Assembly: GCF_900128975.1 (NCBI RefSeq)
Contig: NZ_FQVC01000009.1
Span: forward strand, 62,001 to 126,000
Direction: 5' to 3'
DNA length: 64,000 nt
From: Devosia limi DSM 17137
Lineage (GTDB): Bacteria > Pseudomonadota > Alphaproteobacteria > Rhizobiales > Devosiaceae
The notes beneath the pieces are model-generated. The model did no database searches, was not told where the DNA came from, and worked only from the letters and a program-made list of their open reading frames with translations. Within the stretch, counting starts at the first letter, position 1. Each line of letters opens with the position of its first letter. The translations under genes were made by a program, and so were the position numbers. This document shows, piece after piece, positions 51,910 through 63,940 of the stretch.

Positions 51910-52209
51910 TCAGTACCGACGCCAGGGGGAAGACGTCGGGCGGTATGTCTGGCGATAGGTGATGTGGCGCAGATACACCTGCCGCATCATCGGATCGGCC
52001 TTGGCCATCATCCGCAACGCGCCAACAACGCCGATCCAGATAGCAATCCCTAGCAGAGCGGAAAACCAGGTCAGCACCACAAAGATCAAAATTACCGTCG
52101 CCAGCCCGGTCAGCAGGACCAGTTCGCGATCGGCGCCCATCAGATGACTGGGGCGCGAGAGCGCGCGATGGATGCGTGAGCGCGCAAGGGGAGCGCTGGC
52201 TTCAGCCAT
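51910..52209 (-). CDS. trbD: TrbD (VirB3-like) membrane protein
   Basis: A 99-residue protein: [20 protein letters not shown], then two close hydrophobic stretches ([36 protein letters not shown]) and a basic end ([20 protein letters not shown]). The VirB3 motif RAL.RP is clear. Overlaps trbC by 8 bp. Confidence 0.92.
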
Positions 52210-52570
52210 GAGCCCCCTCCCCTGCCCCGGACCAGGCGGTCGCTCCGACCTCGCCGATGGATGCGCCTGAGGCGCCGAACAGCCCAACGATCTGCGTGGC
52301 GCCCAGCAGGATGCCGGCGACCAGCACGACATACATCAGCCGGCGGGCAAAATCGTTCAGCTCACCGCCGAAGATCAGCATGCCACCGGCCACTGCGACC
52401 GCGGCCAAGGCAATGAAGCCAGCGACTGGCCCGGTGATCGATTGCTGGATCTGCTGCAGGGGGCCTTCCCAAGGGAGGCCGCCGCCGCTGGAGGCCAGAG
52501 CGGGTTCAACCGTCAATACCGCGAAGGCCAGTAGGAACCCTGCCAATAGGGAGCGCTTGTCATGCGTCAT
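52202..52570 (-). CDS. trbC: TrbC (VirB2-like) conjugative pilin
   Basis: A 122-residue protein with a long signal peptide ([20 protein letters not shown], about 9-30) and two membrane helices ([20 protein letters not shown] and [20 protein letters not shown]) separated by NDFA. TraF is expected to trim and cyclise it into the pilus subunit. Overlaps the end of trbB by 11 bp. Confidence 0.93.
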
Positions 52571-53528
52571 CGAAACGTCTTTCTCCTGAATAGGTCTCAA
52601 TCTGGTAGTTGCCGTCTCGGAAGGCTTCGACGTGGATGACCTCGCGCACCCGCCGCCCCTGCGGCGCGCGTTCGATGGAAACCACGAGATCCACGGCCTC
52701 CCCAATCACTTCGTGCATCGGTTGCTGGCTGGCTTCAGCGGTGAGTTGCTCGAGGCGACGAAGCGCCGACAACGCGTTGTTGGCGTGGATTGTGGTGATG
52801 CCGCCGGGATGCCCGGTATTCCAGGCTTTGAGCAGCGTCAGTGCCGCACCGTCCCTGACCTCGCCGACGATGATGCGATCGGGGCGCAGGCGCATGGTGC
52901 TTTTCAGGAGACGGGCCATGTCGACCGTATCGGTCGTGTGCAGCGAAACGGCATTCTCGGCCGCGCATTGAATTTCGGCGGTATCTTCCAGGATCACCAG
53001 GCGATGCTCCGGCGAACTGCGGACCATCTCGGCAATGACGGCATTGGCCAGTGTTGTTTTGCCGGAGCCGGTGCCGCCCGAAATGACGATATTGAGCCGG
53101 GCCTCGATTGCCTTGCGGATCAAATGTGACTGTTCCGATGTCATAATCGCACTACGGACGTAGTCATCGAGAGGGATCAGGCGCGAGGCGCGCTTACGAA
53201 TAGTGAAGCTGGGCGCCCGGACGACCGGCGGCAACAGTCCCTCAAATCGGTGACCACCGATCGGCAGCTCACCGGAGATGATCGGTTGGTCTTCATCGGC
53301 CTCGGTTTGCAGCGCGTGGGCAACACTGCCAATGATGATCTCGGCAGCGCCGGGCTGTAGCTGGCCCATGCTGTCGATCCCCTGCCCCAGCCGCTCCACG
53401 AACAGTCGTCCGTCCGGGTTGAGCATGATCTCCACGACGGAGGGATCGTCCAGCGCCGAGCAGACGGTTTCGCCGAGGGCATCCTGCAGCTTGCGGACAA
53501 GCCGGTGATGCGAGCGCGAAGCTATCAT
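52560..53528 (-). CDS. trbB: TrbB (VirB11-like) ATPase
   Basis: A 322-residue traffic ATPase: N-terminal domain with [16 protein letters not shown], Walker [19 protein letters not shown] (about residue 153), Walker [17 protein letters not shown], and the His-box [11 protein letters not shown]. Start ATG 53528 ([20 protein letters not shown]) is preferred over the open frame extending to 53639. First gene of trbBCDEJKLFGHI; no traI (AHL synthase) precedes it. Confidence 0.95.
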
Positions 53529-53656
53529 CGGCCGTGATCTTGATGCGCAAATGCGTTGGTGGCTGAGCGGTTTGGTGTTTGATGGTTCTGATGCATGTGC
53601 GGTGCCCGCTCCTCGAAACGTGAGGGGCATCAACAACAATGCGACAGCTGGGTCAG

Positions 53657-53967: not shown

Positions 53968-55185
53968 GTGACTGACAGCGTGGTTTATCCCATTGACGAG
54001 GGTATTGCGGCGGATGAGACCATCGGCGCGCACGCCGAGCTCCTTAGTTCTCAGCTGCAGGCCATGAGTGAGGCGATGTTTCCGCCGACCTCAAAGAAAA
54101 CTCTCCGACTTTTCACGTCGGGTGAGGCCGCACGATTGATGCACATCTCCGACTCGACCCTTCGTAAGATGACCATTGCTGGTGAGGGACCACAGCCCAA
54201 AATAGCAGGGAATGGACGTCGGCTCTATACGCTCTCACAGATCAATGAAATCCGTCGTCTTCTTGCCAATGGCACGCGGGGGCGGGATTCCAGTGACTTC
54301 GTACCGCATCGGGGAGATGGAGAGCATCTGCAGGTTCTTGCTATCACAAACTTTAAGGGTGGCAGTGGCAAGACGACGACTGCTGCACACTTGGCACAGT
54401 ATCTTGCGCTGCAAGGTTATCGCGTTCTGGCCGTGGACCTGGATCCACAGGCAAGTCTATCAGCCCTACTCGGAGTGCTGCCGGAAACCGATGTCGGTGC
54501 CAATGAAACGCTTTATGCGGCCATTCGATATGATGATCTTCAACGTCCGCTAAAAGACGTTATTCGGCCAACCTATTTTGACGGTTTGGATTTGGTGCCC
54601 GGAAATCTCGAACTGATGGAGTTCGAGCACACCACGCCAAAGGCGCTCGCAGATCAACGACAGAAGTCGCAGGGAATTTTCTTTACGCGTGTTGCATCCG
54701 CGATCGATCAGGTGTCCCAGGATTATGACGTCGTCGTTATCGATTGTCCCCCTCAGCTCGGATTTCTCACGCTGTCAGGGCTTTGTGCAGCTACCTCGAT
54801 GGTCGTCACTGTTCATCCTCAGATGCTGGATGTTGCTTCAATGAGTCAGTTTCTTTTAATGACTAGAGATCTTCTCGGTGTCGTTAGAGAAGCTGGCGGG
54901 CGGCTAAAATACGACTTCATTCGTTACCTTTTAACGCGGTTTGAGCCGCAAGATGCGCCACAAACGAAGGTTGCGGCACTTCTAAGAAACCTCTTCGGCG
55001 ACCATGTGATGACCAACCCAATGGTGAAGTCTGCGGCCGTCTCAGATGCTGGGTTGACCAAGCAAACGCTCTATGAGATCGGCCGCGAAAACCTGACACG
55101 CTCAACCTATGATCGCGCGATGGAGTCATTGGACGCCGTCAATATTGAGATCGAGCAATTGGTCAAGTCAGCTTGGGGGCGATGA
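53968..55185 (+). CDS. repA: RepA partition ATPase (ParA type) of repABC
   Basis: A 405-residue Walker-type partition ATPase. N-terminal HTH (SGEAARLMHISDSTLRKMTI, about 51-70) and RepA region, then deviant Walker A NFKGGSGKTTTAAHLAQYLA (about 129), DLDPQASLSALLG and VVIDCPPQLGFLTL. It moves plasmid copies apart with RepB and represses repABC. Starts with GTG at 53968 (GTG ACT GAC AGC). Confidence 0.96.
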   Translation: MTDSVVYPIDEGIAADETIGAHAELLSSQLQAMSEAMFPPTSKKTLRLFTSGEAARLMHISDSTLRKMTIAGEGPQPKIAGNGRRLYTLSQINEIRRLLANGTRGRDSSDFVPHRGDGEHLQVLAITNFKGGSGKTTTAAHLAQYLALQGYRVLAVDLDPQASLSALLGVLPETDVGANETLYAAIRYDDLQRPLKDVIRPTYFDGLDLVPGNLELMEFEHTTPKALADQRQKSQGIFFTRVASAIDQVSQDYDVVVIDCPPQLGFLTLSGLCAATSMVVTVHPQMLDVASMSQFLLMTRDLLGVVREAGGRLKYDFIRYLLTRFEPQDAPQTKVAALLRNLFGDHVMTNPMVKSAAVSDAGLTKQTLYEIGRENLTRSTYDRAMESLDAVNIEIEQLVKSAWGR

Positions 55186-55218
55186 TGAGCACCATCCTCA
55201 GCGACCTTGGAATCAGAA

Positions 55219-55270
55219 AGTTGGGAGCTCCCAACTTTTCCGTAGCGCGCTCAGTTGGGAGCTCCCAACT
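55219..55270. other. parS: Two parS centromere sites between repA and repB
   Basis: GTTGGGAGCTCCCAAC occurs perfectly at 55220-55235 and 55254-55269, extended to the 18-bp palindrome AGTTGGGAGCTCCCAACT. It fits the repABC parS consensus GTTNNNNGCNNNNAAC exactly. The centres are 34 bp apart, about three DNA turns, on the same helical face. Confidence 0.93.
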
Positions 55271-55294
55271 CGCCCATGATGCAGGAGGCAACCG

Positions 55295-56299
55295 ATGAGT
55301 CGGAAGGATGCCATAAATTCGATGTTCCTGCAGAAGCCGGCATCAGTCTCAGCTGATCCAGCGGCCGTAGCAAAACGGCCAGAGCGGGTCCGCAGTGGAG
55401 CAATCGCTGCGATGGGCTCCTCTCTTGAAGAGTTGACCCAAGGGGCCAGAGCGGCGGCAAAACTCCATGAGCAGCTCCTCACTGGGGATCATGTGATTGC
55501 GCTCGACCCCGGGGCCATCGATCCGTCCCCAATTGCAGATCGGCTTCTGGCCGACGTTGATCCTGGGTTTGATCAACTGGTCGCCAGTCTGGAGCAGGAT
55601 GGCCAGCAGGTGCCTATCCTCGTTAGACCAAATCCAGCCGTGGAGGGACGCTACCAAGTCGCCTACGGAAGGCGACGTCTTCGTGCACTGGCCCAGCTTG
55701 GCTTGCCGGTAAAGGCGATTGTACGGCCGCTTTCGGACGATGAACTTGTCGTCGCCCAGGGGCGAGAGAATCTTGATCGAGCTGATCTGTCCTTCATCGA
55801 AAAGGCGCTCTTTGCTAAGAGGCTGGAGGATGCGGGATATGATCGCGCAGTGATAATGGCCGCGCTATCGACTGATAAATCTGACCTTAGTCGATATATC
55901 GCGATTGCCAGGCGCATTCCTGAAGAGCTGGCAAGGCAGATAGGTCCGGCAGCGAAGGCCGGCCGCTCGCGTTGGAGCACTCTTGCCGAAGGTCTTGCGA
56001 CGCCGGGCTTTACGTCTAGGCTCAAGGATATCGTAGCTTCAGAAGCGTTTCGCGCCGCAAATAGTGACACGCGTCTCGCCATGGTGCTGAAAACACTGTT
56101 GCCTGTCGCGGACCGAGCAGCAAAAGGTGAGGCTTGGAGCACCCCAGAAGGGCGTCGGGCTGCCCGAGTGGAGCGGCGCGGAACTCAGACCGCGATCACG
56201 TTTGATGAAAAGCGCGTGCCGGATTTTGCTGTGTTTGTGGCGGGCCGGCTCGACGAGCTCTATGCCGAATTTTCTAACGAGCAAGGAGATAGCCAATAG
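55295..56299 (+). CDS. repB: RepB centromere-binding partition protein
   Basis: A 334-residue ParB-type protein: N-terminal RepA-contact segment (MSRKDAINSMFLQKP), ParB domain (VPILVRPNPAVEGRYQVAYG, RRRLRALAQLGLPVKAIVR), central HTH (LSFIEKALFAKRLEDAGYDR, STDKSDLSRYIAIARRIPEE) and a C-terminal dimerisation part. It binds the parS palindromes just upstream. Ribosome-binding site aggagg. Confidence 0.95.
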   Translation: MSRKDAINSMFLQKPASVSADPAAVAKRPERVRSGAIAAMGSSLEELTQGARAAAKLHEQLLTGDHVIALDPGAIDPSPIADRLLADVDPGFDQLVASLEQDGQQVPILVRPNPAVEGRYQVAYGRRRLRALAQLGLPVKAIVRPLSDDELVVAQGRENLDRADLSFIEKALFAKRLEDAGYDRAVIMAALSTDKSDLSRYIAIARRIPEELARQIGPAAKAGRSRWSTLAEGLATPGFTSRLKDIVASEAFRAANSDTRLAMVLKTLLPVADRAAKGEAWSTPEGRRAARVERRGTQTAITFDEKRVPDFAVFVAGRLDELYAEFSNEQGDSQ

Positions 56300-56350
56300 A
56301 AATAGTCGGTCGATGGCATAAGCCAGAAGGCCTGTTTTTAGCCGCAAAAG

Positions 56351-56399
56351 AAAAAAGGCCCCCGAAAGCGAATTCCGGAAGCCCTTCTCGTAGTGTGGT
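56351..56399 (-). ncRNA. Counter-transcribed RNA (ctRNA) controlling repC
   Basis: The minus strand of the repB-repC gap has a promoter TTGACT (56434-56429), 17-bp spacer, GATTCT (56411-56406), a predicted start near 56399, and an intrinsic terminator (stem between 56383 and 56357) followed by six T (56356-56351). This layout is that of the repABC antisense RNA, which sequesters the repC leader and sets copy number and incompatibility. Predicted length about 50 nt. Confidence 0.85.
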
Positions 56400-56499
56400 A
56401 ACACGAGAATCGCACTTCCCTGATTCGTAGTCAAGGCCCTCCAAGGGCACACCGCTTATGGCGGCCGGAATTCTTTTGCCTTACGCAAGGTGAAAGACA

Positions 56500-57828
56500 A
56501 TGCAGACGCATATTTCAACGACGCCCTTTGGGCGGCGATCGCTGACGCTTGGCATGATTTCAAGCCAGGTAACGGCCAAGACAGCGCCGGCAGATGCAAC
56601 AGTCCATAAGTGGCAGGTGTTTGCTGACATCAAGGAGGTGCGTATCGCGCTGGGGGCAACCGATCGTGCTCTGGCGATCCTCAACGCTTTGCTGTCGTTC
56701 CATCCGGAAACGGCTTTCTACGGCGACAGTGCCTTAATCGTTTGGCCATCTAACGAACAACTGATCAACCGTGCCAACGGCATGTCGCCGGCGACGCTCC
56801 GGCGCCATCTGGCGAACCTGGTTGACTGCGGTCTGGTCATTCGGCGTGACAGCCCCAACGGCAAGCGCTTTGCCCGCAAGGGGCAGGGCGGCGAGGTTGA
56901 AGAGGCTTATGGCTTTGACCTGTCACCTATCGTTGCCCGAGCGGCCGAGTTCAAGGACTTGGCTGAGGCGCTCAAGGCCGAAAAGAAGGCCTACCGCCGC
57001 GTTAAGGAGCGGTTAACCATCTGCCGTCGCGACATCATCAAGATGATCGACGCTGGGATTGAGGAGAGTGTGCCAGGCAACTGGGGCAGGGTGCTGCAGT
57101 CCTATCAAACCATCGTTGCCCGGCTCCCCCGCACAGCCCCACGCCAGGTACTGGAGACGATTGTCGCCGAGTTGGAAGACCTCTGGTCCCAGATCCGCGA
57201 CGTGTTGGAATCCTTCGTCAAATCTACAAATATGAGCGCCAATGAGTCTCAATCTGAGCGCCACATACAGAATTCAAAACCAGACTCTAAAATAGATTCT
57301 GAAAGCCGCTTAGGAATAAAAGAAGAAGCGAGCGGCAGCGCCGGGGAAGCATCCAACGTGCAGAGCCTGCCGCGGCGAGAATTGCCCCTATCCATCGTGC
57401 TCGATGCCTGCTCGAATGTGGTGTGGGTGGTCAAAAGTGGTGAAATCCGCACCTGGCGCGACTATCTGGCGGCCGCAGAACTGGTCCGGCCCGTTTTGGG
57501 CATCAGCCCCAGCGCCTGGGATGACGCGAAAGCGGCGATGGGTGAACGAGAGGCGGCGATTACCATCGGAGCGATCTATCAGCGGCAGGATCAGATCAAA
57601 AGTCCTGGTGGCTATCTGCGCAGCCTGACGGATCGGGCCAAGGCGGCTAAATTCTCCGTCTGGCCGATGGTTATGGCCCTGGTGCGGGCCAAACTGGATG
57701 CCACAAAGGCATCTGGGGCCGCGGAAGAGACCGTTGCGACCGCCGAGCGGGTGATGCGAACCGAGAAGCGATTGGAAATCAGCGATGCGCTGCGCCAAAC
57801 GATGGGAAAATGGGACAGAGATAAATAA
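56500..57828 (+). CDS. repC: RepC replication initiator
   Basis: A 442-residue RepC: TPFGRRSLTLGMISSQV..., winged-helix region (WPSNEQLINRANGMSPATLR, RHLANLVDCGLVIRRDSPNG), an AT-richer linker (about 245-295), and C-terminal PVLGISPSAWDDAKAAMGER, IYQRQDQIKSPGGYLRSLTD. It binds the origin inside its own gene and starts replication in cis. Complete and uninterrupted. Confidence 0.96.
   Translation: MQTHISTTPFGRRSLTLGMISSQVTAKTAPADATVHKWQVFADIKEVRIALGATDRALAILNALLSFHPETAFYGDSALIVWPSNEQLINRANGMSPATLRRHLANLVDCGLVIRRDSPNGKRFARKGQGGEVEEAYGFDLSPIVARAAEFKDLAEALKAEKKAYRRVKERLTICRRDIIKMIDAGIEESVPGNWGRVLQSYQTIVARLPRTAPRQVLETIVAELEDLWSQIRDVLESFVKSTNMSANESQSERHIQNSKPDSKIDSESRLGIKEEASGSAGEASNVQSLPRRELPLSIVLDACSNVVWVVKSGEIRTWRDYLAAAELVRPVLGISPSAWDDAKAAMGEREAAITIGAIYQRQDQIKSPGGYLRSLTDRAKAAKFSVWPMVMALVRAKLDATKASGAAEETVATAERVMRTEKRLEISDALRQTMGKWDRDK
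57225..57330. other. oriV: Probable oriV inside repC
   Basis: This stretch is noticeably AT-rich against the surrounding gene (runs such as aaatctacaaatatgag and aaaatagattctgaaag) and encodes a low-complexity linker. repABC origins are mapped to an AT-rich region in the middle of repC in studied plasmids. Confidence 0.6.
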
Positions 57829-57909
57829 CGGCGATCATTGAATTGCCAGTTTCAATACCGTATATTGCGTACAAAGAGTATGGCATAATGGTTGTAGAGG
57901 AGGTCACAA

Positions 57910-58299
57910 GTGACCCAGATACAGAAAATGACAGCGCAGGCAGGGCCGCTGATCCTGTCCTACATGGACCCGGCAGGGCGGATCGCCGCCGAGCGGGTGG
58001 CGAATGGGTTTGGAATGTCGAAGTCCCAACTCGCGGAAACGACTGGGCTGGCGCGGGAAACGCTCTATCGATCCGAACGGATCGGGGCGCCCAAGGCGCA
58101 GGGGCGGTTACGAGAAATGCTCGAAATAATCAGCCGGGTTTCGGAATGGGCTGGTGGCAAGGAGCAGGCAATGGCCTGGTACCGGGCCCAACCGCTGCCG
58201 GCTTTCGGTGGCCGGACTGCTGAAGCTCTGGTCAAGAACGGCCAGGCTGGTGCCGTACGGGATTATCTGGACCACTTGGCACTGGGCGGCTTTGCGTGA
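57910..58299 (+). CDS. Xre/MbcA/ParS-type antitoxin of RES system
   Basis: A 129-residue antitoxin: N-terminal Xre-like HTH (ANGFGMSKSQLAETTGLARE, TLYRSERIGAPKAQ) and C-terminal DUF2384 toxin-binding part (RVSEWAGGKEQAMAWYRAQP, GGRTAEALVKNGQAGAVRDY). GTG start at 57910 with an aggagg site 6 bp upstream. Overlaps the toxin gene by 4 bp. A near-palindrome gta-tattgc-gtac near 57859 could be its operator. Confidence 0.9.
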   Translation: MTQIQKMTAQAGPLILSYMDPAGRIAAERVANGFGMSKSQLAETTGLARETLYRSERIGAPKAQGRLREMLEIISRVSEWAGGKEQAMAWYRAQPLPAFGGRTAEALVKNGQAGAVRDYLDHLALGGFA

Positions 58300-58814
58300 G
58301 GTTCGTCGGGACGTGTTATCGAGCCCATGATCCACGCTGGGCTTTTAAGCCGCTTTCTGGGGAGGGGGCAGGGATACGGGGCGCCCGTTTCAATCCCAAA
58401 GGGGTGCCTGCGCTCTATCTTGGCCTCAGTGTCATGACGGCGATTAAGGAGATCAGCCAAGGCTTTGCCCATCGCCTCGATCCAACAGTGCTGTGTTCTT
58501 ACGATGTCGATTGCGACGATATCGTCGACCTCACGTCGGAGCAGGGCAGGGGAGAGGTATCCGTGACAGTTGACGAGATGGCCTGTGCTTGGGCATCGGC
58601 GCTGGCACAGGGGGAGCGGCCAGTTTCCTGGTCGATCTATGATCGGCTCGTCGCGGACGGCACGGCTGGAATTCTGGTGCCCAGTTTTGCACCCGGCGCT
58701 GAGGCCCAGGATTGCAATTTGGTCCTGTGGAACTGGGACTCGAAACTGCCCCATAAGGTGGAGGTGTTTGATCCCAGCGGCCGACTCCCCCGCGATCAGT
58801 TATCCTGGAGCTAG
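58296..58814 (+). CDS. RES-domain toxin (NAD+ phosphorylase)
   Basis: A 172-residue RES-domain protein: Arg in GEGAGIRGARFNPKG, Glu in VMTAIKEISQ, and Ser in GILVPSFAPG correspond to the three name-giving residues; NLVLWNWDSK follows. RES toxins deplete cellular NAD+ (shown for MbcT and RES homologues). GTG start at 58296, coupled to the Xre antitoxin. Confidence 0.92.
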   Translation: MRFVGTCYRAHDPRWAFKPLSGEGAGIRGARFNPKGVPALYLGLSVMTAIKEISQGFAHRLDPTVLCSYDVDCDDIVDLTSEQGRGEVSVTVDEMACAWASALAQGERPVSWSIYDRLVADGTAGILVPSFAPGAEAQDCNLVLWNWDSKLPHKVEVFDPSGRLPRDQLSWS

Positions 58815-58965
58815 ATGGATAACAGCTATGCTGCCATCCACTGCGGATGCAGACTAACTACGCGCAGTTCGCTTCTTTCTGAAAGGAATGTAGGCTTGGT
58901 CAGAATGCCGCCTTCACGCGGCGCTAAATTTAGGCCAAAAGTGCGCGGGAAAAACGCAGCAGACC

Positions 58966-59598
58966 ATGAAAAAGCCGGCCACAACAGACTCCGATATCCG
59001 CTCAGCGCTTCATGCCAAGCGATTGAGGCACGCCAGATCCCACCCAGACACGCTGGTGATCGATGAACTTGGTCTTGCGCATGCTCGAGGCCGTATCGAC
59101 ATAGCGGTCATTAACGGCTGCATTCATGGCTATGAGATTAAGAGTGCCAAAGACAATCTAGACCGGATGGCGATGCAGATCGGCATCTATCGTCAGACTC
59201 TGCAAAAGCTGACATTCGTGACAGCGCCGAAACACGTTGAAGGCATCGTGAATGCGGCTCCCCAATGGTGTGGCGTAATCGCTGCTGAGCAGGGGCCAAG
59301 GGGCGGCATAGAATTCCACACGGTGCGAAAGGCCGTTCGCAATCCCGAAGTTGATGCGATTATGATGGCGCATTTACTCTGGCGAGACGAAGTTATCGAA
59401 CTGCTGAGCAATGCAGGCTATTTACCAAGGGACCTCCGCCAGCCAAGGCAGCATCTCTACCGGATGCTATGTGAAACCCTTTCTCTTTCAGAGATCACCT
59501 CCTCCATACGCACTTTCATGATCCGGCGACGGGATTGGAGAGGTCGTCAAGCACCTGCATCATATGATGATTTATCGCTACATCTTTCCAGCGTGTAA
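58966..59598 (+). CDS. sce7726-family protein (PD-(D/E)XK nuclease-like)
   Basis: A 210-residue protein. The core VIDELGLAHARGRIDIAVIN, GCIHGYEIKSAKDNLDRM contains a D...ExK triad (Asp in RIDIAV; Glu-Ile-Lys in YEIKS) typical of PD-(D/E)XK nucleases and is diagnostic of the sce7726 family. The C-terminal part is helical. Its 3' end overlaps the 3' end of the convergent beta-family gene by 83 bp. A defence role is inferred from the fold and neighbours only. Confidence 0.82.
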   Translation: MKKPATTDSDIRSALHAKRLRHARSHPDTLVIDELGLAHARGRIDIAVINGCIHGYEIKSAKDNLDRMAMQIGIYRQTLQKLTFVTAPKHVEGIVNAAPQWCGVIAAEQGPRGGIEFHTVRKAVRNPEVDAIMMAHLLWRDEVIELLSNAGYLPRDLRQPRQHLYRMLCETLSLSEITSSIRTFMIRRRDWRGRQAPASYDDLSLHLSSV

Positions 59599-60601
59599 GA
59601 TTGCTCGTTGGCGCTTTCTTCACAGCGCATTTGCCGATGTAGTCGTCTCCGTAGCTGTAATGGTTGCCTTTGAAAAAGCCAGATCCGACCAGGACAGCGC
59701 AATGTTCGTGCATTTGCTCTTCATTCCCGCGGAAGGCGCTGCCCTTGCGCACCCACCAGGACTTCCCGGTCGCATATACGATCTTCCCTGACGACTTTAT
59801 TTTGCGCATGTCTTGCGGCGTGAATTCGGGATGGACGATGGTATAGTCGCCGTAGCTCGGCCTTCGCATCCCAGAAGGCAGCGCGGAAAGCAGAGCTTGG
59901 AAAAACAACCAATCATGGCGCGGTAACTCGCCCACGCCTTTGGAAACGTCCTTGAAGGTCTCGGGAATAGCAGTGCTTATGAGCACAAGATTGCGGAATC
60001 GATTGAGATCCCCTAATCGGCGCAACGAGGCGATCAACGCCAAGGCGAATGCATTGTAGGGCTCAAAGTTGGGCTGACCGAGGTCGAGAATGAGATCGAC
60101 TTCATTCTCATTGACCTCCAGCGAGCGAAACACTGCCACGACGCGCGCGAACGCGTCCTTCTTCATCAAATCCTCCAGTCGAACAGAGATAGCAACTCCC
60201 CGCCCGTCTTGCTTGACGATCCCCGCAACCGAGCTTTGGAGCTTAGTGGTGGCGTCCAGCCGGATAGAGGGCACGGCCTTGGCACCGAGCTTGCGTAGGC
60301 CGTCGAATACGTATGTCAAAATGTCGCGACCGTCGTTCATGATGCCGTCTGCGACAGTTGCATGCACACCTATCCACGCGGGTCTGGCACCCCACTTCTT
60401 TCCGTATCGATCCACAAAAGGATGCACATGCTCGTGGATCGTTTTTTTCGGCTGCCAGGAGTCGAAGTCGAATTCGCGCTCTGGAATGGTAAGGTAGGGA
60501 ACGACCCGTTTCTTGGCACCATCGGTCAAACGAAGAAGCGCCTGGTACTCTGCCATGCGCCATCTTAGCGCTGGCACATACATGTCCTCAGTCAAGTTCA
60601 T
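59516..60601 (-). CDS. Beta-family protein (T4 beta-like)
   Basis: A 361-residue protein beginning MNLTEDMYVPALRWRMAEYQ. It has RVVPYLTIPEREFDF, a predicted TIM-barrel-like alternation (ENEVDLILDLGQPNF, FRNLVLISTAIPETF), and PRHDWLFFQALLSAL..PSYGDYTIVHPEF, features of the T4 beta-protein family (PF14350), commonly found beside sce7726-type genes. Biochemical activity is unknown. It is the last gene of the operon DUF6932 - XRE-ImmA - beta; its start overlaps the previous gene by 14 bp. Confidence 0.82.
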   Translation of the reverse strand: MNLTEDMYVPALRWRMAEYQALLRLTDGAKKRVVPYLTIPEREFDFDSWQPKKTIHEHVHPFVDRYGKKWGARPAWIGVHATVADGIMNDGRDILTYVFDGLRKLGAKAVPSIRLDATTKLQSSVAGIVKQDGRGVAISVRLEDLMKKDAFARVVAVFRSLEVNENEVDLILDLGQPNFEPYNAFALALIASLRRLGDLNRFRNLVLISTAIPETFKDVSKGVGELPRHDWLFFQALLSALPSGMRRPSYGDYTIVHPEFTPQDMRKIKSSGKIVYATGKSWWVRKGSAFRGNEEQMHEHCAVLVGSGFFKGNHYSYGDDYIGKCAVKKAPTSNLTRWKDVAINHHMMQVLDDLSNPVAGS

Positions 60602-61862
60602 CGCTCGCCTCTTCAAGTTGCGAACGAACCTGATTTTGGCCGACCAGGTCATTCAAGATGGTGTAGTTTCCGCGCTCTTTTCTAATGCGACCGGCAATGA
60701 TGCTCGGATCTATGCCGATTGTCTCAGCATCTATCTGCACAGCTTCTTTCGAGAGAGCGAAACGCGAGAGGCATTGGTCCCACAAGTCTTCGGGTATCAA
60801 GGCATCGAGCGCAAATTTGTCAGCTTGCGCTTCGATTGCGTCGAAGCCGTTGCCGCCTTCCTCATCGAAGAAATCAAAACGCAGGCCGTCGAACAGGTGG
60901 AGGAAGACATGCCCGAGCTCATGCATCAGCACAAACCAGAAGTTGTCCAGTCGATCATAGCGGAGCGTCAGCCCAACGACTGGGGTGTCGCCAACGAGCA
61001 TAGCAGCGCCGTCGAGATATGACCCCGGGAGGTGACGCTCGACGACTAGTACAATACCTTTTTCGGCCAGCAGGTCTCGAGCACGCCGTGGGCCGTCATC
61101 GAAATTGGTGAGGTGAACCAACTCTGATAGCCATCGGTCATCCAATTGGAAGCTTCCAACTTCGCCAGCTTGAATTTTGCTATGGGCGCGCTCCAGAATA
61201 CGTGCTTGCCAAGCGAGCAAGGCATATTCGTTTGGCACGTTACCGCTGTGCATCTTCTTGCGATGAAACGCGGTTGCAAATCGAGGGCCGGCGGCCTGCA
61301 GGAAGTAGTCCTTTACAAGTCCGATTGGGTTCGAACCACGCGGTAAGTCAAACCATCTGCGCTTGATCATTTCTTTGTAAGGAAACTGGCCCCAGGCGAC
61401 ATCGTCAGCGTCGCTCCAGGTGAAGAGAGAGCCACTGGCAGAGCCCGCACCCTCAAAACTCCCCGATGCCTTGACACCAAGTGCTTTCGAAACCTCAACC
61501 AGCCGGCCAAGATTCGCACCGCTATAGTCTGTTGCCTCATAACGCTGTATTTGTTGCGGCTTCATTCCAAGTTTCTCGGCCAAGTCAGTCTGGCTCATAC
61601 CTGAGGCGATTCTCGCTTGCACCAAGACGCGTGGCAGCTCTTCTAGCGAGTAGGTTTTCGAGAAAGAGACTTGGCCGGATTTCAGCAGATCGTATTCGAG
61701 AATTTCAGCTTCGATATCGGCAATCTGGCTCTTGAGTGCATTGATTTCCGCCTGCTTGAGCCACGCTTGATCCGACACGCGCGCAGTGGCTACATTAAGG
61801 GCGTCTCGCAACTTTTTCAGTTGCGCGCTGGATACGCTTTGCTGTTTTTCGCTGTAAATCAT
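60588..61862 (-). CDS. XRE-HTH and ImmA/IrrE metallopeptidase protein
   Basis: A 424-residue regulator-protease. N-terminal coiled coil (about 5-60), Xre HTH (RIASGMSQTDLAEKLGMKPQ, QIQRYEATDYSGANL, about 85-125), and C-terminal ImmA/IrrE peptidase with the zinc motif MHELGHVFLH (HExxH, about 312) and EAQADKFALDALI. Proteins of this build, as in phage and ICEBs1 immunity, cleave repressors or act in conflict systems. The start at 61862 overlaps the DUF6932 stop by 4 bp (ATGA). Confidence 0.9.
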   Translation of the reverse strand: MIYSEKQQSVSSAQLKKLRDALNVATARVSDQAWLKQAEINALKSQIADIEAEILEYDLLKSGQVSFSKTYSLEELPRVLVQARIASGMSQTDLAEKLGMKPQQIQRYEATDYSGANLGRLVEVSKALGVKASGSFEGAGSASGSLFTWSDADDVAWGQFPYKEMIKRRWFDLPRGSNPIGLVKDYFLQAAGPRFATAFHRKKMHSGNVPNEYALLAWQARILERAHSKIQAGEVGSFQLDDRWLSELVHLTNFDDGPRRARDLLAEKGIVLVVERHLPGSYLDGAAMLVGDTPVVGLTLRYDRLDNFWFVLMHELGHVFLHLFDGLRFDFFDEEGGNGFDAIEAQADKFALDALIPEDLWDQCLSRFALSKEAVQIDAETIGIDPSIIAGRIRKERGNYTILNDLVGQNQVRSQLEEASDELD

Positions 61863-62338
61863 GACTGCACCTTCGCGAAGAGAAGCGGGTCGGTCGAAAG
61901 CTGAATGGCAATGATCCCCTTGGCTTGTCCTGTGAATCTGTCGATCTGAAAAAAATCTACGAATGACTTTCCGACATCGACGCACGTCATCGACGATAGA
62001 AAGAACTCCCCTCTGAATGCCGATTTTTGCGCGGCTCGACCGTTGGAAAAATCCAAAAACACTGGGTCAAGGGTGACTGGATCCACCCCAGCCGGGTCCC
62101 AGCATGCATCAAAGTCACCAGGTATGGGCTTGCCGGAGACGTAGCTGCCATCGAGAAAGATCTTTGTGCATCCAGCCTCTTTCAGTTTACTCGAAGCAAG
62201 GATAAGCCCCCCAAACAATTCACGCCGCCACGCATTCGTGGCGAATGCGGATGCCACTTCCTCCAAATTTGCCGTGTGTGCACCAGGCGGCAAAACGGAC
62301 CAAGGAGAGCCATTCAAAGGTACGAGTGCTGGAATCAT
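61859..62338 (-). CDS. DUF6932 nucleotidyltransferase-like protein
   Basis: A 159-residue protein starting MIPALVPLNGSPWSVLPPGA. The motif FLDGSYVSGKPIPGDFDACW has the form Gly-Ser...Asp-x-Asp of minimal nucleotidyltransferases (MNT), with GDFD as the metal-binding pair. MNT proteins act as antitoxins or AMPylases with HEPN partners, but no HEPN gene is adjacent. First gene of the three-gene operon; the frame is open to 62380, but the ATG at 62338 fits the family. Confidence 0.78.
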   Translation of the reverse strand: MIPALVPLNGSPWSVLPPGAHTANLEEVASAFATNAWRRELFGGLILASSKLKEAGCTKIFLDGSYVSGKPIPGDFDACWDPAGVDPVTLDPVFLDFSNGRAAQKSAFRGEFFLSSMTCVDVGKSFVDFFQIDRFTGQAKGIIAIQLSTDPLLFAKVQS

Positions 62339-62389
62339 GGTTACAACAATACTGTTGTATTTGGTTGGCGGCAAGATCAATTATGACCC

Positions 62390-62884
62390 GAGAATTTTTC
62401 CGGAGCGGCGATGCGCCAGATCGCTTTCGTCAAAGCTCCGGCTGCGACTGTTGGCAGTCTCGGTGCATTTGGCTCAATAGTCGGACAGTGGGCACGGTTA
62501 CTGTGTTGTCAAGCAGGTCCAGCGGCCGCTAAGTTCGGCAAGAAACTAGGGGATTGGCTAGGCCAGTTCGGGGCATGTACGAAGTTGTCAGTGGAGCTAG
62601 CGCCCAGAAGACATGCTTGGCACGCCGTAGCCCAATGGCCGCATGATCTAGTAGTGCCCCAACCCGCCAGCCGACGGCCTTTCGTAACTGGCGGGGTTCC
62701 CTGGCATTCCCGATAGCTACTCCAGGTCAATGACCAGTTGGCAGGCTCGCGCGCCGGGGGACTGCGCGCACGCACCATCGAGGTGTTCGATCAGCGTGGC
62801 ATCGCCGACCGGTTGTTGCCCAACGGCAGAACGCACAGATGCAGCGAGTATTGGTACGAGGCATAGTCCGCGTAGGGCAGGGAC
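62390..62884. other. Gene-poor remnant region
   Basis: About 495 bp. An inverted repeat cccgccag / ctggcggg (62663-62670, 62688-62695; 17-bp spacer) lies in the middle. Near 62760-62840 the plus strand reads GLRARTIEVFDQRGIADRLL then PNG, a short N-terminal piece of FAD-dependent aromatic monooxygenases, with no continuation. No complete gene. Confidence 0.5.
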
Positions 62885-63940
62885 CTACAGCCCGGCCGCC
62901 TTGGTCAGATTGATGCGAAACCGATCGCGCCGCCGTTGATAGCGCCGGGTCATCTCGGCCGAGGCGTGGCCGAGCTGCTTTTGCACATAGCGCTCATCCA
63001 CCTCGGCGCTACTGGCCAGACCGGCGCGTAGCGAGTGGCCGGCAAACTGCAGCGCCCGTTCGGCCTCCGGCAGCTCCCCACGCAGCCCGGCGGCCAGCGC
63101 CGTGCGCTTGACCAGATTGGCGACGTGTTTGTCCGAGAGCCGCTCGACATCGACGGTCTTGTTGTCCTTGAGGATTGGCCGGAAGATGGGCCCGCGCTCG
63201 ATCTTGCCAAATTTCAGCCAGGCCTCGAGCGCCGCCACCGGACACGTGCGCTCCGCTGAGCCGCGGGCGATTTCCACTTCGCGCCAGCCGGTTTTGCCGC
63301 GTAGCGTCAGCAGCACCCCGCCGGGCTCGATGGCAATCCAGCCACAACCCTCAACTTCAATGTCAGCACGGCTTACATTGAGCCCAACGATTTCCGAACG
63401 CCGCAAGCCGCCGGCAAAGCCCAGCAACAGTATGGCGCGATCGCGCAGCCCGCGCAGGTCGTGGCCCAGGCTCTCCACCATGGCGACGATGTCGTCGGGC
63501 AGAATGGCTTCCTTCTGCACCGGTGGTTTGCCGTGTTTCCGGCGGATGCCGGCCAGCACGCTGGCGATGTGGCGATCGCTGCGATCGAGGACAAAGCCGC
63601 GCTGGCGAAAATTCCACATCAGCCCGGACAGCTTGCGCTCGATAGTCGCCACAGCGAGCGCCCGGGCGCCCTTGGCCTCAGGCGCAGCACAATCGGTGAT
63701 ATAGAGTCCCAACACCTGTGGGGTCGGGGGCAGGGGCTCGAGGCCACGCCGGCGGCACCAGCCGGTAAAATGCCGCCAGTCCTGGGCGTAGGCGGTCTGG
63801 GTATTGGCCGCGCTGGCGTGTTTGGCAAACTCTTTAGCCGCGTCCGCCAGGCGGCCGAGATGCGCCGGCGGCGCCGCCGTGTCTGGAACCACCGGCAACT
63901 GAGGGGCAAACGTGGCGTTTGTCGGAGTATCGGAATTCAT
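62885..63940 (-). CDS. Tyrosine recombinase/integrase (XerC/D-like)
   Basis: A 351-residue site-specific recombinase. N-terminal SAM-like domain (AKEFAKHASAANTQTAYAQD, WRHFTGWCRR, about 30-120), catalytic domain with Arg in GFAGGLRRSEI, the His-x-x-Arg box in FAGHSLRAG, LGHASAEMTRRYQ giving the second His and the Tyr nucleophile. Complete. It could resolve plasmid multimers or mobilise the neighbouring cargo. Confidence 0.92.
   Translation of the reverse strand: MNSDTPTNATFAPQLPVVPDTAAPPAHLGRLADAAKEFAKHASAANTQTAYAQDWRHFTGWCRRRGLEPLPPTPQVLGLYITDCAAPEAKGARALAVATIERKLSGLMWNFRQRGFVLDRSDRHIASVLAGIRRKHGKPPVQKEAILPDDIVAMVESLGHDLRGLRDRAILLLGFAGGLRRSEIVGLNVSRADIEVEGCGWIAIEPGGVLLTLRGKTGWREVEIARGSAERTCPVAALEAWLKFGKIERGPIFRPILKDNKTVDVERLSDKHVANLVKRTALAAGLRGELPEAERALQFAGHSLRAGLASSAEVDERYVQKQLGHASAEMTRRYQRRRDRFRINLTKAAGL

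Follow-up and report, generated by a model that had tools for sequence, protein, structure and literature searches.

A conserved four-gene cassette related to PD-lambda-2 and gop-beta-cII, with a possible role in phage defence

Two systems with experimentally described anti-phage activity stand closest to the locus considered here. In PD-lambda-2, the second component by itself is toxic, the first counteracts this toxicity, and the third, akin to a P4 antitoxin, is needed against lambda (PMC9519451). The gop-beta-cII system of satellite P4 protects against lambda and P1 (PMC9122126). In both cases E. coli is the protected host. We analysed a 64,000-nucleotide stretch of Devosia limi DSM 17137 (contig NZ_FQVC01000009.1, positions 62,001 to 126,000; hereafter the window), in which four genes, named A, B, C and S, form a cassette that links these two separately described systems via shared genes. 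We take the PD-lambda-2 report to be that of Vassallo and the gop-beta-cII report to be that of Rousset.

A, B and C constitute an operon on the minus strand (62338-59516), and S lies on the plus strand, tail to tail with C. A (61859..62338, minus strand) is a DUF6932 protein with a probable minimal nucleotidyltransferase fold; B (60588..61862, minus strand) combines an N-terminal segment, an XRE helix-turn-helix (HTH) and an M78 (ImmA/IrrE) metallopeptidase; C (59516..60601, minus strand) is a beta protein, predicted to be a TIM barrel; and S (58966..59598, plus strand) is an sce7726/P4 cII-family protein with a PD-(D/E)XK-like nuclease motif. The four open reading frames (ORFs), their strands and their overlaps of 4 bp (A/B), 14 bp (B/C) and 83 bp (C/S, convergent 3' ends, 59516..59598) were checked to the base in the window and exactly match the original prediction. 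The C query mostly started one codon early, at 60604; the ATG is at 60601, giving the 14-bp overlap. For B, homologues favour the ATG at 61862 over a GTG at 61985.

The cassette resembles PD-lambda-2 in that B (XRE-peptidase) and C (beta) have homologues there in the same operon order, and palindromes are seen by eye upstream of the first gene in both. However, the first gene is HigB-like there and DUF6932 here, and the palindrome reads GTTCC..GGAAC there (by eye) and TACAACA-N4-TGTTGTA here. Each of two PD-lambda-2-like queries matched 8 of 5426 E. coli genomes. Three E. coli loci (L123, L124 and L125) encode HigB, ImmA/IrrE and beta; their HigB proteins match the PADLOC model PD-Lambda-2_A (1.4e-57 in L123), and B and C of L123 match PD-Lambda-2_B and PD-Lambda-2_C. 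By eye, two of these loci carry their own GTTCC..GGAAC palindromes upstream of HigB (L123:3507-3606 and L124:3511-3610). In E. coli C, a SIR2 family gene and an integrase come after the locus (L124:5098-8987).

With gop-beta-cII, the cassette has in common beta and cII, homologous to C and S, and cII is convergent to beta in both, the P4 order being gop, beta. The P4 proteins cII, beta and gop match the PADLOC models cll, beta and gop at 3.2e-113, 8.2e-188 and 4.8e-70, respectively. In contrast, none of the four cassette proteins matches gop (PDLC03001) up to E 1, the P4 locus as annotated has no A- or B-type gene, and P4 beta and cII are separated by 27 bases instead of overlapping. Neither system has this gene set, and DUF6932 takes the HigB or gop slot. 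The original prediction had called the cassette a candidate undescribed one, which is overstated: PD-lambda-2 has homologues of B and C, P4 has homologues of C and S in beta and cII, and the two systems are experimentally anti-phage. The four-gene unit as such is undescribed in the literature searched, to the extent of the texts retrieved, with preprints and most subscription papers outside it. The search found no paper on DUF6932, and in the passages retrieved sce7726 is merely named as a gene.

Recurrence of the four-gene unit

With B as the query, genome contigs yielded 434 relatives. The best 80 were kept as loci and scored with profiles derived from the window plus plasmid and phage relatives. 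All four genes occur in the same order, with S convergent, at 77 of the 80 loci. The three exceptions are a locus at a contig start without A (L056), one at a contig end without S (L073) and one with a broken beta and without S (L043). One gene is split into two frames in 4 of the 77 loci (A in L044 and L078, C in L076 and L079). Once the window, L001-L004 and L098 are added, all four genes are present in 83 of 86 loci and S in 84 of 86; A and B overlap by 4 bp in 59 of 85.

Distance matrices of the four proteins over 79 loci are correlated (A-B 0.88, A-C 0.82, B-C 0.93, A-S 0.89, B-S 0.91 and C-S 0.87), the maximum of 300 permutations being 0.13. This correlated divergence shows common descent as a unit and is not evidence of contact. 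The recurrent linkage of the four families, which the original prediction had put forward, is borne out, and the four genes form one conserved unit, beyond chance. The idea that they are chance neighbours in a mobile region accords with the plasmid replication genes on one side and the integrase on the other, but it is refuted by the architecture shared at 77 of 80 loci together with the single antisense phase and the shared operator described below, and we regard it as extremely improbable.

Record titles assign the loci to Alpha-, Beta- and Gammaproteobacteria, Nitrospirales, Bryobacterales, Chloroflexi, Planctomycetota, Verrucomicrobia, Bacteroidota and Actinomycetota, although individual labels may be wrong because many records are metagenome-assembled. 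The B proteins of the gammaproteobacteria Thiohalocapsa (81%) and Lamprocystis (78%) are close to the window B, a similarity that points to movement of the cassette between bacterial classes. On viral contigs, 25 relatives of B were found: the full cassette is present in one (L098), beta occurs without A or S in two (L102 and L103), and the other 22 have no match to A, C or S.

By script, an overlap between C and S exists in 83 of 84 loci, the exception (L079) having beta split into two frames. The median overlap is 47 bp, and its length leaves a remainder of 2 on division by 3 in 84 of 84 loci, corresponding to one antisense phase. In the window, the overlap encodes the nearly invariant residues R188, W191 and R192 of S and W339, H346 and H347 of C. 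We also collected 80 sce7726 loci from viral contigs, many of them near-identical copies since they hold just 46 distinct S translations (L235 and L098 are one contig). A convergent beta accompanies sce7726 in 78 of the 80; the two overlap in 77 of these 78, and 73 of the 78 have that same phase; B is found in 4 of the 80, and both A and B are absent from the beta/S pair in 74. Among 398 Pseudomonadota genomes, sce7726 is over the cut-off in 14 and beta is convergent in 11 of these; the other three (L126, L128 and L129) have instead a same-strand neighbour, sce7725, identified by model (L163 and L164) or by similarity (L165). That beta and sce7726 are kept tail to tail, almost always in one antisense phase, across phyla calls for explanation. 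The 3' overlap would hold C and S together, and their transcripts may regulate each other.

The four proteins and a putative palindromic operator

A matches PF22014 (E 1.9e-30). Of the PADLOC models, PDC-M63A alone matches it (2.2e-8), and no match to PD-Lambda-2_A was obtained up to E 1. M63A is part of the PADLOC candidate PDC-M63AB, but no other PDC-M63 model matches B, C or S up to E 1. The GS...D-x-(D/E) residues of Pol-beta-type nucleotidyltransferases are present in A: across the homologous loci, G64 S65 and D75 are each found in 85 of 85, and position 77 is D in 79 and E in 6. A had no match in the PDB as a single sequence or as a profile; its predicted model probably resembles, by VIA-align, the MNT/HI0073-type minimal nucleotidyltransferases 1no5, 8xeh and 2rff. 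Together with the GS..DxD residues, the modelled fold suggests that A is a probable nucleotidyltransferase, which gives this family a probable enzyme class. Unlike MNT/HEPN pairs, the cassette has no HEPN partner among its four genes, a HEPN domain being absent from A, B, C and S up to E 1.

B matches HTH_3 (2.3e-10), Peptidase_M78 (1.2e-6) and, among PADLOC models, PD-Lambda-2_B (PDLC03982, 6.3e-77), capP (1.6e-8) and capH (0.042). Its best match to the RmrA models of RosmerTA is 1.4e-12; A, C and S match no other RosmerTA model, the presence of a toxin model in that library being unchecked. The HExxH metallopeptidase motif (H314 E315 H318) and E344 are found in 86 of 86 loci, and the sequence matches in the PDB are HTH and IrrE entries only. 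PprI binds single-stranded DNA and cleaves DdrO, cleavage of CapH by CapP is activated by single-stranded DNA, and DNA damage elicits a response from M78 peptidases and their repressors (PMC10904395). B likewise unites an M78-type peptidase with an HTH repressor, but in one chain, whereas PprI/DdrO and CapP/CapH are two proteins. Also unlike the cyclic-oligonucleotide-based anti-phage signalling system (CBASS) of CapP/CapH, the cassette has no CBASS cyclase model among its matches.

C matches PF14350 (8.7e-78) and the PADLOC models PD-Lambda-2_C (PDLC03983, 1.5e-46) and beta (PDLC02985, 1.9e-9). As a single sequence it had no match in the PDB, and its profile gave three weak ones (best E 0.67). 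Structure modelling predicts that C folds as a TIM barrel, newly proposed here, so that beta gains a predicted fold. S matches NF033832 above the family cut-off (E 9.9e-45) and PADLOC cll (PDLC02989, 2.1e-26), with no sequence match in the PDB for the single sequence or the profile. D45, E57 and K59 of S are found in 84 of 84 proteins and the same residues are aligned in P4 cII; in the window the motif reads D45..E57-x-K59, Q71. We take this D...ExK core to be the PD-(D/E)XK nuclease motif. The active sites of A, B and S on which the original prediction relied are conserved among homologues.

Upstream of A in the window lies a palindrome, TACAACA-N4-TGTTGTA (62342..62359), a putative operator and B site that is the sole match in the 64 kb even allowing two mismatches and is unique in the 4.3-Mb genome at up to one mismatch. 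Between 50 nt upstream of A and 10 nt inside it, 63 of 84 loci carry the form ACAA-N8-TTGT and 49 of 84 the stricter ACAAC-N6-GTTGT, while shuffled A-upstream sequence yields the palindrome at 0.15%. The first base is at -20 or -19 in 58 of the 63 loci, and the flanking bases covary (T..A in 29, C..G in 33 and T..G in 1). The palindrome is found in 0 of 84 S-upstream regions (160 nt); across L018-L097, 796,170 bases in all, the strict form was counted 46 times. From these observations we infer that B binds the palindrome via its HTH and represses A-B-C only. The inducible layout proposed in the original prediction is now backed by this operator, which makes induction directly testable. A palindrome of the same type (ACACAAC type, ACACAACATATTTGTTGTGT) was seen by eye in L009:3597-3696, a locus with XRE-M78 and beta and no DUF6932 or sce7726 match.

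The best -35-like hexamer (at least 4/6) lies exactly 16 nt upstream of the palindrome in 40 of 63 loci, this being the best of 24 offsets with no control count; a -10 box at the usual spacing would then fall within the palindrome. In the window these are TTGCCG (62369..62374, minus strand, 4/6, 16 nt upstream of the operator core) and, by eye, a putative TATTGT (62346..62351, minus strand, 17-nt spacing). A consensus scan of 58700-62900 listed 0 promoter-like sites against 2.2 in shuffles, so the promoter named here rests on its position relative to the palindrome across loci. The scan also gave 4 terminator-like sites against 4.6 in shuffles.

Possible functions of the cassette

In the flanks of the 80 loci (120 of 398 ORFs scanned), 84 PADLOC families were matched at 1e-10, including, among the 25 listed, GajB, PtuA, Drt4, Drt6, AbiEi and PD-Lambda-3_B, compared with 7 in a control set, for which 120 ORFs were drawn from 15 chromosomal stretches in 9 genomes; these counts are of families and not of proteins, one ORF may match several, and the control comes from other genomes. 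The mad3 models account for 4 members of the 7 control families and for 2 in the flanks, and phage integrase domains were found in 8 of the 120 flank ORFs. The expected enrichment of defence genes nearby is in line with these counts. The defence function, like the roles of A, C and S, is inferred by analogy with the relatives above. We favour, at about even chances, an anti-phage (or anti-plasmid) cassette that is mobile, regulates itself and resembles a toxin-antitoxin system; it would be a DUF6932 variant between PD-lambda-2 and gop-beta-cII.

Under this interpretation, B would sit at rest on the palindrome via its HTH and keep A-B-C repressed, with S on the opposite side without such a site. 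An infection signal, most likely single-stranded DNA as in PprI/DdrO and CapP/CapH, would activate the M78 peptidase, and cleavage of B would derepress the operon. A may restrain the toxicity of B in uninfected cells, as PD-lambda-2A does with PD-lambda-2B, perhaps by nucleotidylylating B. C, whose relative is needed for PD-lambda-2 defence, may team up with S, a putative nuclease of the PD-(D/E)XK type, to act on the DNA of phage or host.

The same components could instead serve a DNA-damage or stress response: damage would lead B to derepress the operon, and A, C and S would contribute to repair-like processes, with no anti-phage role. M78 peptidase/repressor pairs do answer DNA damage, but the distribution is patchy, with beta in 5 of 201 genomes of relatives of the window's host (own included), the flanks carry defence-type genes and both nearest characterised systems are anti-phage. 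We consider this reading very unlikely.

An addiction or stabilisation module of a repABC plasmid is a rather unlikely but more serious alternative: A and B, as antitoxin and toxin, would punish plasmid loss, and any phage effect would be a by-product. The window cassette sits between repABC (53968-57828) and a tyrosine recombinase (62885-63940), two other loci (L002 and L003) are also near repC, and PD-lambda-2 B and A act as toxin and antitoxin. However, some loci lie on long, chromosomal-looking contigs (4.6 Mb in L060 and 914 kb in L031), four genes including a nuclease would seem more than addiction requires, and the relatives protect against phage.

Several observations weigh against the defence cassette as we propose it. 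No defence activity was found for PDC-M63AB in its native host, E. coli NILS69 (PMC12409345). Of the 11 Pseudomonadota genomes with convergent S and beta, the full four-gene type is present in 2 (the window's own and G498), 5 have an M78-type protein upstream without an A match, and no B-type protein was matched in the remaining 4. In those five, Pfam M78 is above the cut-off in L169, L170 and L174 and slightly below in L168, while L171 was recognised via NF052239 and the B profile only. In the same 11 genomes, C and S overlap in 9, abut in 1 and are separated by a 5-base gap in 1. DUF6932 occurs at 18 places in 17 of the 398 genomes, and B follows at 5 of the 18. Of the five genomes with beta among the host relatives, 2 have the four-gene type and the rest have no sce7726 in the stretches fetched. 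Finally, PD-lambda-2 works without S, and sce7726 is absent, by annotation or profile, from the 8-9 kb fetched around the three E. coli PD-lambda-2-type loci, which leaves S no more than a candidate for the killing nuclease.

These E. coli loci also favour the idea that A-B-C alone is the functional unit, PD-lambda-2-like, and sce7726 a separate gene at a shared site, as do the lack of an operator of this type at sce7726 and two loci with XRE-M78 and beta and without sce7726 (L007 and L009). We find this unlikely: S is present in 84 of 86 loci, its divergence tracks that of A, B and C, and beta is convergent to S in 11 of 14 genomes and 78 of 80 viral-contig loci.

Partial combinations and surroundings

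Two further loci (L166:2868-4792 and L167:2878-5342) pair DUF6932 with XRE-M78, and the fetched stretches contain neither beta nor sce7726. Immediately before beta, three others (L169:3102-6007, L170:2908-5440 and L174:3850-6908) have an M78 peptidase that lacks an XRE match and is itself preceded by another ORF; sce7726 is convergent in all three. With A-B pairs alone, beta/S pairs alone and XRE-less M78 proteins before beta, A-B gives the impression of a trigger module that was attached to a beta/S core. A broader and tentative reading, in our view possible but more doubtful than not, is that the convergent, 3'-overlapping pair of beta (TIM barrel) and cII-sce7726 (nuclease) would be the shared effector core of a large defence superfamily with an exchangeable upstream trigger: gop in P4, M78-protease types elsewhere and here a nucleotidyltransferase with a self-cleaving XRE-M78 repressor. 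For the four-gene class, this reading has the phage induce the cleavage of B, which would relieve the promoter and free the core, and A would chemically modify B to silence it; PD-lambda-2 would then be derived, its nuclease lost.

In the window, the GC fraction at 60001-62000 (0.539) is the second lowest of 32 blocks (range 0.529 to 0.649), and no repeats mark the cassette ends. The original prediction placed the cassette, as one system, beside a RES toxin-antitoxin pair and an integrase: both neighbours are present in the window, but the RES/Xre pair (57910-58814), which adjoins the cassette, is not among the four recurring genes. Farther away, ORFs at 51910-53639 resemble conjugation (TrbB/TrbC-type) genes, judged by eye from their translations. 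The cassette lies near repC and/or an integrase on several alphaproteobacterial plasmids (window 53968-63940; L002, L003 and L004), perhaps a hotspot. In the cassette of the Marinibacterium plasmid, the minus-strand sce7726 match (L002:7049-7669) is unannotated in the record.

A homology of sce7725 to beta is possible but doubtful: an N-terminal motif and a C-terminal HH motif look alike by eye, but the best hhalign probability was 12.9% (E 0.0022), and hmmsearch failed to tell real from shuffled sequences. The sce7726 and sce7725-type genes lie on the same strand at L163:4139-6926, L164:4199-6032 and L165:2247-5041. In L163 a RES-domain protein (PF08808, 6.6e-17) comes after them, which may be a further toxin associated with a nuclease of the cII type.

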